Assembly: GCA_022769125.1 (NCBI GenBank)
Contig: JALEKN010000011.1
Coordinates: forward strand, 1-64,000
DNA length: 64,000 nucleotides
Origin: Agathobacter sp.
GTDB taxonomy: Bacteria > Bacillota > Clostridia > Lachnospirales > Lachnospiraceae
Direction of reading: 5' to 3'
Positions 11,128 through 64,000 of this stretch are shown piece by piece. The notes below the pieces were generated by a model. That model saw only the letters and a program-made list of their open reading frames with translations. It made no database searches and was not told the origin of the DNA. The position numbers and the translations under genes were made by a program. Each line of letters opens with the position of its first letter. The stretch's first letter is position 1.

Positions 11128-11916
11128 ATGAGCGTTCAATTATTGGATAAGACCCGTAAGATTAACAAGCTCCTTCACAACAACAGTTCGTCGAAGGTGG
11201 TATTTAATGACATATGTGAGGTAATGACAGAGATTCTTGATTCGGATATCCTTGTCATCAGCAAAAAGGGAAAGGTTCTCGGCTCTAGTGTCTGCAAGAG
11301 CGTGGATGAGATCAAAGAGCTCCTTGTTGACGAGGTTGGCGGCTATATCGATCCGATGTTAAACGAACGATTGCTTGGCATTCTTTCTACCAAGGAGAAT
11401 GTCAATCTGGAGACTCTTGGATTTGGTGAGGAGTCGCGCAGATACCGCGCTATCATCACTCCGATTGATATTGCAGGAGAACGTCTTGGCACATTGTTCG
11501 AATACCGGAGTGAGAATGAATACAATATTGATGATATTATTCTTACCGAATATGGAACAACGGTTGTCGGACTTGAGATGATGCGCTCCGTGAATGAGGA
11601 GAGTGCTGAGGAGGCGAGAAAACAGCAGATCGTACAATCTGCAATCAGCACGTTGTCATACTCAGAACTTGAGGCGATCATCCATATTTTTGATGAACTC
11701 GACGGAACGGAGGGTATCCTGGTTGCCAGCAAGATTGCGGATCGTGTCGGAATTACGAGATCAGTTATTGTAAATGCACTCCGTAAATTCGAGAGCGCAG
11801 GTGTGATCGAATCAAGATCTTCCGGCATGAAGGGAACTTATATCAAAGTTGTCAACGATGTCGTGTTTGATGAAATAGAAGATATCAAGCGCCGGAACAA
11901 ATTTAAAACCAAATAA
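11128..11916 (+). CDS. codY: GTP- and branched-chain amino acid-sensing repressor CodY
   Basis: A 262-residue CodY, the global nutritional regulator of low-GC Gram-positives. Seen: an N-terminal GAF-type ligand domain (about 1-155), a linker helix, and a C-terminal winged helix with SKIADRVGITRSVIVNALRK and FESAGVIESRSSGMKGTY. Length matches the family (about 259). Ribosome site GGGGAGG precedes ATG 11128. It has its own promoter and terminator (11941-11975), so it is monocistronic here. The next locus is the flagellar operon; in B. subtilis codY also lies directly upstream of flgB and CodY represses the fla/che promoter. Confidence 0.96.
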   Translation: MSVQLLDKTRKINKLLHNNSSSKVVFNDICEVMTEILDSDILVISKKGKVLGSSVCKSVDEIKELLVDEVGGYIDPMLNERLLGILSTKENVNLETLGFGEESRRYRAIITPIDIAGERLGTLFEYRSENEYNIDDIILTEYGTTVVGLEMMRSVNEESAEEARKQQIVQSAISTLSYSELEAIIHIFDELDGTEGILVASKIADRVGITRSVIVNALRKFESAGVIESRSSGMKGTYIKVVNDVVFDEIEDIKRRNKFKTK

Positions 11917-60304: not shown

Positions 60305-61330
60305 CTACTTTTTATCCTCGATCCGTCCCGGAGAAAAGCGGGTTAGTTCACCTGGATTTGAGGTAGGTGTGTAGTATACCTGTCCGGTAAAATAATCGGT
60401 AAAGTAAATATAGTAGCTCGTGACATTGATACAGCTGTATGTTCCGAGCGCAAGTTCCCTTGCATTGCTGCCGTCATTTTTGATCATGCACAGTGCAGGG
60501 GATTCTTTGTCATAGCGCTGATAGTAGATGTAACTGCCATAGACATTGTAAGTATCAATGCTGTCTGTTGTCAGGACTGTTGGATTGCCGGTGTGTATGT
60601 TTGTATGGACAAGAGCGTTGTTCTGATCTACATCCAGATAATAGGCATTACCATCACCGGAAACCGTCGGTTTATAGCTGTTGCAGCTATAAACCTGATA
60701 TGTACTGTCGGTGGCTGTGTCATATATCCAGATACTTCCATCCGTTGACATATTGTTGTAGTAGAAATACTGTCCATCGCTGCTGCAGGTAAACTGGTAA
60801 GTATCGGAAAGCTTTGTCCGCTCTGTACCATCTATTTTTATCTTATACAATGTGGTTGCGGTTTCGGTATCGTAGTGCAGATAGTAGATATAGTTTCCAA
60901 TCAGTGAGGCATACAGGCATGGATCGGGATCGAGAACGGTTACATGGGAATCCTTGCGATCTAGGCGGCACAGGCTGTTGTTGTGAAATGAAAAAAAATT
61001 GTGCCCGGCTGCAGAAAGATCGTTATCCCGGACATAATAGACATAATGACTGTCGGCATTTATGTACATTACGGTGTCATTACAGAGCTTTTTGAGATTG
61101 CCGCCATTGGCATCCATTGAATAAAGCCGGTTTTCATCATCCGGATTTGCAAAAAAGACAACGCCGTTATTTTCGCAGAATAATCCTGCATTGTACAGAT
61201 TGCCTGCGGTGTTGCCATTGATATAATTCGTGTTAAAAATAATACGGCTGCTGAAATGCTTGTACACAAAAAGCCCGGTACAGCCGAGAAAAATAAGCAC
61301 AATAAGTGCCCGGATCATAAATTTACGCAT
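60305..61330 (-). CDS. DUF5050 beta-propeller protein, membrane-anchored or secreted
   Basis: A 341-residue protein with an N-terminal signal anchor (about 7-23) and then repeated beta-strand units of the type YIYYLHYDTETATTLYKI, GQYFYYNNMSTDGSIWIYD and SYIYYQRYDKESPALCMI. These are typical of DUF5050 propellers of clostridia. Very rich in Tyr. Function unknown; extracellular binding is likely. GGAGGAAAC precedes its ATG at 61330. The gene converges on polC with 9 bp between stops and no visible terminator, and diverges from pheA. Confidence 0.85.
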   Translation of the reverse strand: MRKFMIRALIVLIFLGCTGLFVYKHFSSRIIFNTNYINGNTAGNLYNAGLFCENNGVVFFANPDDENRLYSMDANGGNLKKLCNDTVMYINADSHYVYYVRDNDLSAAGHNFFSFHNNSLCRLDRKDSHVTVLDPDPCLYASLIGNYIYYLHYDTETATTLYKIKIDGTERTKLSDTYQFTCSSDGQYFYYNNMSTDGSIWIYDTATDSTYQVYSCNSYKPTVSGDGNAYYLDVDQNNALVHTNIHTGNPTVLTTDSIDTYNVYGSYIYYQRYDKESPALCMIKNDGSNARELALGTYSCINVTSYYIYFTDYFTGQVYYTPTSNPGELTRFSPGRIEDKK

Positions 61331-61415: not shown

Positions 61416-61470
61416 TTTATTAAGACAAACGGCGGATGAAAACACCGCAAAAACAACAGATGGAGTGATT

Positions 61471-62601
61471 ATGAAGGACTTACTCGAACTAAGAAACGAA
61501 ATTGACAAGATCGACAACCAGATCGTAGAGCTTTACGAGAAGCGCATGGAAGTGGCAGAGGGTGTTGCACAGTATAAGATCGCAAACCACAAGCCGGTAT
61601 TTGACAGGGAGCGCGAGCACCAGAAGCTGATGACACTTTCTGCGAAAGCGCATTCGGATTTTAACAGAAATGGCATCCGGGAACTGTTCGACCAGATCAT
61701 GGCGATGAGCCGTAAGAAGCAATACCAGCTTTTGAGTGAAAATGGTATCCGGGAAGAAATCGGCTTTACTCCGGTAGACGAGCTGGATTTTGAGAATGCA
61801 CGTATCGTCTTTCAAGGTGTGGAGGGTGCTTACAGTGAGCAGGCAATGAAAGAATATTTCGGCAGCCACTGTGACAACTATCATGTGGATACGTGGAAAG
61901 ATGCAATGGAAGCGATAAAGAATGGAGAGGCAGATTATGCTGTTCTTCCAATTGAAAATTCCTCCGCAGGAATTGTATCCGAGAATTATGATCTTATGGT
62001 TGCCTACGACAATTACATTGTAGGAGAGCAGATTATACCGATTGAGCATGCACTGCTAGGACTTCCAACAGCCAATTTGTCGGATATCTGCACCGTATAT
62101 TCCCATCCGCAGGCACTTATGCAGTGTGGAGAGTATTTTGAGGAACACCGCGGCTGGGAGAAGATCAGCTTGAAAAATACTGCCATGGCAGCCAAGAAAG
62201 TCAAAGATGACGGCATTGCTTCACAGGCGGCAATCGCAAGTAAAATTACCGCGGATATTTATGGGTTAAAGGTACTTGAGAACGCAATCCAGGACAATAA
62301 GAACAACAAGACACGCTTTATCATTGTGACAGGTAAGAAGATATACCGTCAGAAAGCTGCAAAGATGAGTATCTGTTTTGAGATTCCTCACGAAAGCGGT
62401 TCTCTGTATCGTATGCTCTCACATTTTATCTACAACAATCTAAATATGACGAATATCCAGTCCCGGCCGATTGGGGACCGCAATTGGGAATATCGCTTTT
62501 TCGTAGACTTCGAGGGTACCTTTGAAGATACCGCAGTACAGAATGCACTGCGCGGGCTTCGCGAGGAGACCACCTACCTCAAAATCCTCGGAACCTACTA
62601 A
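61471..62601 (+). CDS. pheA: Bifunctional chorismate mutase / prephenate dehydratase
   Basis: A 376-residue enzyme of phenylalanine synthesis. The N-terminal AroQ chorismate mutase (about 1-90) begins LLELRNEIDKIDNQIVELY. The prephenate dehydratase domain (about 108-290) has VFQGVEGAYSEQAMKEYFG, VLPIENSSAGIVSENYDLM and NKTRFIIV, with the catalytic Thr-Arg-Phe. The C-terminal ACT domain (about 300-376) with CFEIPHESGSLYRML binds phenylalanine for feedback control. ATG 61471 has GGAGTG upstream; the longer open frame to 61387 lies in the promoter. Confidence 0.97.
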   Translation: MKDLLELRNEIDKIDNQIVELYEKRMEVAEGVAQYKIANHKPVFDREREHQKLMTLSAKAHSDFNRNGIRELFDQIMAMSRKKQYQLLSENGIREEIGFTPVDELDFENARIVFQGVEGAYSEQAMKEYFGSHCDNYHVDTWKDAMEAIKNGEADYAVLPIENSSAGIVSENYDLMVAYDNYIVGEQIIPIEHALLGLPTANLSDICTVYSHPQALMQCGEYFEEHRGWEKISLKNTAMAAKKVKDDGIASQAAIASKITADIYGLKVLENAIQDNKNNKTRFIIVTGKKIYRQKAAKMSICFEIPHESGSLYRMLSHFIYNNLNMTNIQSRPIGDRNWEYRFFVDFEGTFEDTAVQNALRGLREETTYLKILGTY

Positions 62602-62614
62602 TCATACAATCACA

Positions 62615-63170
62615 AGTCACAGCCACTTGGTTTATCGGCATTCTGCCATCAGACTTTTTTAGATTTTTGCGTGTACCGCTTGGAGACAAAAACGATTCCA
62701 CAAGAATTGTAGAGATTCTTTTCAACCATTCCGGCGGTGATAGGGTTATGTCTTATATCAGCTTTGACACTCCCAGCCCGACTGTCCGTGGCAGAAAGAC
62801 TTGCACTCAAACTTTTTAGTTTTTCTAGGCGGGCGTTTTTGTGAAGTTGATATTAGAGCATGCCCTTCAAAACTCGCTTTTTATGTTTTCTATATAGCAA
62901 CAAAGTTAGCTCAAACAGATGAAGGGCATGCTCACATTTCCCAAAAGCCGCCCGCAAGAAGAACACAAAAGTTCTCGAATTACAAGTCTTTCTGTCGCGA
63001 ACCGCCGGGCGGGAGTGCTCAAACTTATAGAAGACAGAACTTATAAATAAACCGCCGGATGGTTGGATTAGAATTTCACAATTTGCAGTGGTGTTTTTGG
63101 TTCAAGCGGTATACACAAAAATGGGTAAAATGTGATGAGGCAGAATGTGGCTTAAGTGTTGTGGCTGGCG
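62615..63170. repeat. Giant imperfect inverted repeat (fold-back element)
   Basis: Nearly the whole 601-bp gap between pheA and the Ppx-like gene is one long imperfect palindrome centred near 62894. Matching blocks (left / right arm) are: CATTCTGCC 62639-62647 / 63139-63147; a 20-nt block with two mismatches 62663-62682 / 63103-63122; CAACCAT(T)CCGGCGGT 62723-62738 / 63051-63065; a TTTGA(G)CACTCCC block 62763-62774 / 63011-63023; CAGAAAGACTTG 62792-62803 / 62983-62994; GCGGGCG 62829-62835 / 62949-62955; and GAGCATGCCCTTCA 62856-62869 / 62920-62933. The order of blocks is kept and spacings differ by only a few bases. The central loop is about 50 nt. No transposase is encoded, and an 81-codon open frame (62801-63046) across it is not convincing. 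It may be a MITE-like fold-back element or a very long RNA hairpin. Confidence 0.9.
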
Positions 63171-63202
63171 AATGAATATTATGCACAAAAGGAGATGGTA
63201 TT

Positions 63203-64000
63203 ATGGCAATTCCGATGTTTGCGGCAATTTATATAGGGTCTTACGAGGTCAGCCTCAAGATATTTGAGATTTCGTCCAAGAAGAAAATTCATGAAGTGGA
63301 TTATATCCGGAGCCGGTTGGATCTCGGACGGGATGTGTATCAGAAGGGCGCAATCGGCTATGAACGTGTGGATGAATTATGCGAAATCCTTGGAGAATTT
63401 TCTTCAATTATGGCTGGTTATAAGGTGACAGAGCATGAAGTGTATGCATCAGCGGTGCTTCGCGATTCATCCAATGAGCTGTTTGTGGTGCATCAGGTAT
63501 TTTTGCGCACAGGATTTATGATCAAGGTCATCAGCAATTCCGAATACCGTTTTATCGGGTATAAGTCCATTGCTGCAAGGGAACCGTTTGAGGAAATGAT
63601 CCAGACATCAGCTGCCGTAGTGGATATCGGAGGCTCAGGCATCCAGATCACTACATTTGAGAAAGGACAGCTTCAGACGACACAGCACCTGGAGATGGGA
63701 ACCGTTCGTCTGCGTGAGCTGCTTAATAAGCGGGGGCAGGCTCTCCAGCTGTACGAGACGCAGATCGAGGAGTACGTCAACAAGAAGCTGGAGGTATTCC
63801 GCGCACTGTATGTGGAGTCCGGAGTTGACTATGTGATCTTTATGAGCGATTACTGCGAGGAGCTGATCGCACATATTGATAAGAAACATACCGAGGGTAA
63901 CGTGGTGAAGGCAGAGCGCTTTATCAAGTACATCGAGAAGCTGCAAAAGAAGAGTGTGGAAGAAATCTGCATGGAGTTAAACCTTGCGAATGCAAAGGAT
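63203..64000 (+). CDS. Ppx/GppA-type exopolyphosphatase-like protein, N-terminal part (cut by window edge)
   Basis: The first 266 residues of an actin-fold Ppx/GppA family protein. These cleave polyphosphate or pppGpp. Seen: the phosphate-1 region AAIYIGSYEVSLKIFEIS, a SNSEYRF segment at the place of the family's catalytic Glu, and the phosphate-2 region AAVVDIGGSGIQITTF. The first loop has Tyr10 where the family normally has Asp (IDIGS), which may weaken catalysis. The segment VDYIRSRLDLGRDVY is like clostridial members. AAAGGAG precedes ATG 63203. The frame is still open at base 64000. Confidence 0.85.
   Translation, partial: MAIPMFAAIYIGSYEVSLKIFEISSKKKIHEVDYIRSRLDLGRDVYQKGAIGYERVDELCEILGEFSSIMAGYKVTEHEVYASAVLRDSSNELFVVHQVFLRTGFMIKVISNSEYRFIGYKSIAAREPFEEMIQTSAAVVDIGGSGIQITTFEKGQLQTTQHLEMGTVRLRELLNKRGQALQLYETQIEEYVNKKLEVFRALYVESGVDYVIFMSDYCEELIAHIDKKHTEGNVVKAERFIKYIEKLQKKSVEEICMELNLANAKD

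Follow-up and report, generated by a model that had tools for sequence, protein, structure and literature searches.

The gap between pheA and a Ppx/GppA phosphatase gene of Agathobacter sp. holds one long imperfect DNA hairpin, which is probably a non-autonomous, MITE-like mobile element whose arms template each other. It is a non-coding dispersed element and not one conserved RNA gene. The hairpin is a MITE in the broad sense; unusual are the hairpin body over the full length, the concerted arms and the fixed unpaired bases at the apex. The window is the whole stretch of 64,000 nucleotides that was analysed (contig JALEKN010000011.1, positions 1 to 64,000), and its genome is named G000 in the following. 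These features were assigned:

61468..62601, plus strand: pheA (chorismate mutase / prephenate dehydratase; Pfam CM_2 and PDT), upstream neighbour
62607..63174, no strand: complete imperfect hairpin, a single copy of the dispersed element including both outer arms (fold, genome matches, empty sites)
62607..62687, no strand: left outer arm, paired to the right one and unlike other copies in sequence (fold, flank comparison)
62688..63098, plus strand: core common to other copies of the genome, mostly 70-80% identity (blastn, alignment A1)
62829..62956, plus strand: apical domain kept across genera (covariance models R1 and R3)
62870..62918, plus strand: apical motif AAACTCGC..GCTCAAACAG, conserved bases flanking a variable apical stretch
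63099..63174, no strand: right outer arm (fold, flank comparison)
63203..64000, plus strand: Ppx/GppA phosphatase gene (Pfam Ppx-GppA), downstream neighbour, extends past the window end

Fold, insertion and copies of the hairpin

A sequence-only reading had described an imperfect palindrome of about 550 bp with a loop of about 50 nt in the pheA-ppx gap. This was confirmed. The 581 nt folded gave one rod with -258.2 kcal/mol, and none of 100 dinucleotide shuffles was as good (mean -146.8, sd 6.4; z -17). The 218 pairs, 20 of them G.T, extend from the outermost pair 62607/63174 to 62869/62920, the innermost of the main stem, inside which a loop of 50 nt remains. Both perfect blocks named before were located, the one of 14 bp at 62856-62869/62920-62933 and the one of 12 bp within the inverted-repeat pair I2 (62773-62803/62983-63013). 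That the arms match over their full length holds for the pairing; it does not hold for the arms as uniform units, which consist of the common core (about 62688-63098) and copy-specific outer arms. No Pfam match was found in the hairpin, and its largest ORF has 81 aa, so that a transposase would not fit in it.

The pheA stop codon lies at 62599-62601 and the Ppx/GppA start at 63203. Hence, the gap has 601 nt, of which 33 nt are left after subtraction of the hairpin. Among 17 genus relatives, ppx follows pheA immediately in five, at a distance of about 35 nt or less, and lies about 1.3 kb from it in seven; no ppx was recognised near pheA in the other five. These positions refer to a motif that precedes the start by a few codons. 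In a set of 80 named loci, which possibly overlaps with the 17 relatives, the genes are adjacent with similarly short gaps at five, and ppx was unrecognised at 75. Agathobacter sp. RGIG8619 and Roseburia porci (74% each) are among the named relatives that PheA ranked best. Since the gaps of the relatives with adjacent genes measure about 35 nt or less, the whole hairpin arrived by insertion. The outer arms are thus part of what was inserted and do not derive from older DNA at the flanks. Upstream of pheA a DUF5050 gene lies on the minus strand (60305-61330). In two of the relatives with about 1.3 kb between pheA and ppx (L035, L045) the intervening ORF carries STKNLILYK near its start.

In the G000 assembly (2.75 Mb, 68 contigs, 93% complete) 36 blastn matches of the hairpin were detected, itself and its own inverted arm counted. 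Most of the longer matches span the core 62688-63098 at 70-80% identity. Full-length cores were present at 17 of the 27 loci inspected (alignment A1); at several others, among the copies listed, the centre is gone and both arms are kept. The many dispersed copies, together with the empty sites in relatives, bear out the fold-back MITE that had been one option of the earlier reading. Another option, two inverted copies of one dispersed repeat, fails as the copies are whole hairpins. The many copies and empty sites show that the element inserts between genes. In 59 other genomes, 35 of the same genus, blastn gave no match at E 0.001 when up to 10 candidates were scored in each. Plasmid and phage collections also gave no blastn match to the hairpin, nor did the phages to one relative. 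A truncated copy elsewhere in G000 (L027, near 49.8 kb of contig C7) adjoins a tandem array, the units of which contain, by eye, GGTGATGGCTAAG..ATAGCCATCACATGAAAATCGC.

The apical motif in other genomes

The apex motif AAACTCGC..GCTCARACAG ties the window hairpin to multicopy long hairpins of other Lachnospirales. The family is dispersed among Lachnospiraceae that live in the gut. The conserved unpaired bases of the apex are AAACTCGC, GCTCARACAG and a TATTA bulge. With the covariance model R1 of the apex, matches were detected in 7 of 60 genomes of the genus, the own genome included, and up to 25 in one genome. Model R3, built from seven genomes, matched 11 of 397 family genomes (again including the own) and 10 of 334 genera; both scans were run with strict filters, by which weak matches are lost. 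When a gap of 3-33 was allowed, 21 of 295 genomes of the order contained the exact motif, eight of them with 7-29 matches, and the reversed motif gave three matches altogether. When 15 motif places on 14 stretches were folded in context, 51-189 pairs enclosed the motif (raw fold counts). The motif was present on 44 viral stretches. R3 clearly backs one of these, L317, which lies at the end of a contig, and one more marginally; L309 resembles a member in its fold.

Across the apex, 45 aligned sequences, of which 44 are distinct, contained 410 two-sided changes at 94.4% pairing, read from an alignment fitted to its own model. Under the same fitting, the covariation score was 0.891, against 0.221 for shuffled and 0.10-0.16 for slid columns. 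For alignment A5 a stricter cut-off was used, and rows of the opposite strand and L074 were excluded.

Concerted change of the arms

Within G000, the 133 stem pairs of alignment A1 were compared copy against copy. Watson-Crick double changes (1679) exceeded single changes (1085), and the ratio of 1.55 fell to 0.07-0.17 when the partner columns were slid. Relative G681, with a largest contig of 4.1 Mb, showed 107 double and 88 single changes among the ten copies of its main subfamily, three copies of a second subfamily being left out. When arms were dealt to other copies (500 rearrangements), double changes dropped to 16.5 (maximum 28) and single changes rose to 250. Moreover, single copies of G681 carry an insertion in both arms, of 15 nt in L367 and of 2 nt in L369. 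Such paired insertions are poorly explained by independent compensating mutations and thus indicate copying from arm to arm. In a further relative, G007, two kinds of spacer stand left and right in some copies and right and left in others (by eye, 12 copies with two distinguishable spacers), as is expected from recombination or template switching between the arms.

From the two-armed changes and two-armed insertions we infer that the DNA may fold during replication, repair or transposition, whereupon a polymerase or mismatch repair would rewrite one arm from the other. Arms that template each other co-evolve for this reason, and stay Watson-Crick paired as the copies diverge. Passages of PMC8604942 describe template switching as a process that homogenises the arms of inverted repeats and inverts spacers, and in part of PMC8794818 it is proposed to create and maintain hairpins, the strongest evidence for the latter being called circumstantial there. 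Multi-base compensatory changes without intermediates and spacer inversion are common to these accounts and to the hairpins described here. As far as the same passages go, the process was inferred for RNA genes and for coding repeats of yeast, in contrast to the repeated occurrence within one mobile family in this work.

The alternative is a functional structured RNA, with the copies as RNA genes or UTR elements and the paired changes as selected compensatory mutations. The very strong covariation of the apex (0.891 against 0.221 shuffled) would fit such an RNA, and so would the unpaired bases AAACTCGC/GCTCARACAG and the TATTA bulge, which are kept across genera. The earlier reading had also taken differences that preserve G-U pairing as a hint of RNA selection. 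This hint was not upheld: where wobble was not favoured in deriving the pairs, A.C mismatches were about as frequent as G.U. In 23 copies the counts were 94 G.U and 83 A.C for the outer arms and 88 and 120 for the cores; eight consensus or single-copy hairpins of several genomes gave 35 and 36. The cross-genus apex without two irregular pairs comprised 994 Watson-Crick cells, 8 G.U and 10 A.C, in contrast to 47 G.U and 11 A.C with these two pairs counted. One-sided changes of A1 under the RNAalifold structure, which is based on RNA energies, amounted to 50 G.U and 35 A.C, and single changes of G681 tilted the opposite way (16 to 35). In most measures there is thus no wobble bias.

The orientation of neighbouring genes relative to the core was not biased over the 27 loci of G000 either (mechanical ORFs: ++ 9, -- 9, -+ 4, +- 4, one unresolved). 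Furthermore, both arms are altered together, up to the 15-nt insertion, and the presence among genomes is sporadic. Rfam gave no match in the window at the gathering threshold; the six weak matches below the cut-off in 62500-63300 are far under it. One conserved copy with compensatory changes had been named before as the mark of an RNA. Paired changes are abundant here, yet they are spread across many mobile copies and often comprise several bases at once. A functional RNA is therefore improbable, set back above all by the near-equal G.U and A.C counts and the lack of orientation bias. These two results and the two-armed changes indicate that pairing is kept at the DNA level, most likely through copying from arm to arm and not through RNA selection. 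Pairing per se is no evidence of a functional RNA.

Homogenisation of the arms would not reach every position. Certain bulges and the apical internal loop seem to escape it and are conserved across genera. As simple homogenisation does not leave conserved bulges, the fold is likely under some selection. The bulges and the loop probably carry a signal in sequence or structure, most likely for a mobilising protein.

Long stems may keep their perfect pairing through gradual compensation or through copying of one arm onto the other in a single step. With dozens of paralogous hairpins per genome and multi-base changes in both arms, the two can be tested directly against each other. In addition, the covariation was far above the shuffled and slid controls although the wobble and orientation tests favour DNA; hence, screens for covariation might list repeats of this kind as RNA genes.

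Ends of the element and comparison with known systems

Beyond the core, the flanks pair within their own copy in all 23 G000 copies with both ends (scores 25-66), the remaining 4 of the 27 loci lacking one end. Flanks swapped between copies scored 5.4 on average (506 pairs, 95th percentile 13, maximum 31), and in 8 of the 23 copies, including the window copy with 26, the own score does not exceed this maximum. The outer sequences are unlike between copies, with weak common traces in some.

Seven young copies of relative G010 have cores with 87-94% identity and outermost segments that are mostly dissimilar. In five of them the two ends of one copy match over 27-36 nt, two copies with no mismatch and two with one, whereas L064 has three in 33. 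The ends of the remaining two are alike over just 16 nt with one mismatch (score 13), and cross-copy scores range from 6 to 19, some of them above this value. One end segment each of L071 and L086 was searched in the G010 assembly (83% complete) and matched only itself and its own other arm; additional matches of L071 were a 26-nt fold-back overlapping the query and one of 20 nt at chance level (E 2.4). The right arms of L064, L071 and L076 contain about 80 bp with two small hairpins at the same place, which could have been inserted there as a nested element or could be ancestral and missing from the other four copies through loss. In L080, TCAAATACATTTGC and TCAAATAAATTTGC flank the paired ends and form, by eye, a possible imperfect direct repeat.

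Paired, copy-specific flanks raised the question of an inverted duplication of target DNA at insertion. For the window this was rejected, because the gaps of about 35 nt in relatives are too small for a target-derived arm. For the G010 ends, whose counterpart in genome G009 has no match across the intergenic stretch, target DNA may have been duplicated. The hairpin might also be regenerated at each move, in that a folded single strand has its second arm and ends re-synthesised on the first, in a rolling-hairpin-like manner, and a protein would read the conserved bulges of this strand. If so, each new copy would receive fresh, copy-specific and closely paired ends. We consider this rather unlikely. 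To our knowledge, no hairpin-copying mode of transposition is known in bacteria.

The copies of G007 terminate in terminator-like hairpins, and the same hairpins stand free at 4 of 12 further places examined in this genome (L138, L140, L144 and L145, lone hairpins whose stem GGGCTGTCGCAAAT recurs at the ends of the long elements). This would agree with insertion into pre-existing hairpins such as terminators, by which the unique paired ends would be stems of the target. However, the longest perfect stem in the window, one 64-kb stretch of G000, has 14 bp (loops up to 150); stems of 13 or 14 bp number five, the 14-bp block of the hairpin included. The empty pheA-ppx gaps are also too short for a target hairpin, and such an origin of the ends is very improbable.

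In G681 the elements end in TCAAACTTCCCACTTGG, which gave 136 matches at up to 2 mismatches and none for the reversed control. Among them are elements of about 295 bp as well as pairs of only about 48 bp. Two of the latter (C1, 3599376-3599423 and 4005094-4005141) consist of the two terminal repeats alone, and one of these (L399) has the direct repeat TATCTAAA at its ends. Target site duplications (TSD) of 7-10 bp were found in this branch: of 27 elements that had both ends within the loci retrieved (a single right end enters this count twice), nine had terminal direct repeats with scores of 7 or more, seven of these at nearly equal offsets. In the control with swapped flanks, 3.7% of 702 reached this score (binomial P 3e-7). 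Examples are AATAAATGA, TTATACTAA and TTATTTAC.

Neither the window copy nor eight G007 copies with recognisable termini showed a TSD. Target duplications, earlier proposed as a check for a MITE, were seen in one relative and not in these copies. The TSD evidence is confined to G681, which the apical motif and the architecture tie to the window copy. No stretch of transposase size was seen by eye between TCAAACTTCCCACTTGG ends of G681 among the matches listed (about 100 of 136). Movement is presumably brought about by a transposase supplied in trans.

A tentative possibility is that one DNA strand of the element, folded on itself, is the form that moves or acts, as with the attC sites of integrons, and that a structure-reading protein selects Watson-Crick stems and fixed bulges. 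Stems almost exclusively of Watson-Crick pairs, unpaired bases conserved over very different stem sequences and the lack of target duplications in the eight G007 copies speak for it, but the duplications of G681 better fit a double-strand insertion of the DDE type by a putative enzyme.

Our preferred reading remains the MITE-like element with arms that would be copied from each other. Like the bacterial MITEs of the Correia/NEMIS, ERIC and RUP class, as they are described in part of PMC2229807, the hairpins are non-coding, mostly intergenic, dispersed and stem-loop forming, and in the G681 branch they also share the terminal repeats and the TSD. The known elements in that part measure 100-200 bp, in contrast to about 300 to 600 bp or more here. 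Different are also the pairing of the arms over the full length with a conserved apical internal loop, and the subterminal sequence, copy-specific yet equal in both arms. The PATEs of Haloquadratum (palindrome-associated transposable elements), in the passages of PMC3119063 concerned, are likewise mobile repeats that lack a transposase, contain palindromes and have short derivatives made of the termini only. They are described there without terminal inverted repeats or target duplication, whereas the G681 branch has both. REP/REPIN/BIME sequences with RAYT, to the extent that their partial descriptions allow a comparison, are also palindromic with many copies, to which the short 48-bp forms of G681 compare; our hairpins are much longer and, in G681, have TSD. 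No description of this long-hairpin family was found in the open-licence PMC literature.

Integron attC sites have variable stems with conserved extrahelical bases. Both traits recur in the hairpins, which are far longer and for which no integrase or cassette array was seen. An integron-like array was considered for contig C2 of relative G631 and rejected, as ordinary chromosomal genes surround the motif copies (10 ORFs of the first 20 kb scanned). On this contig at least 11 motif-bearing hairpins lie within 45 kb (L352, L353, L354). Two of them, at 11748 and 15810 of L353, have nearly identical arms at a distance of 4 kb.
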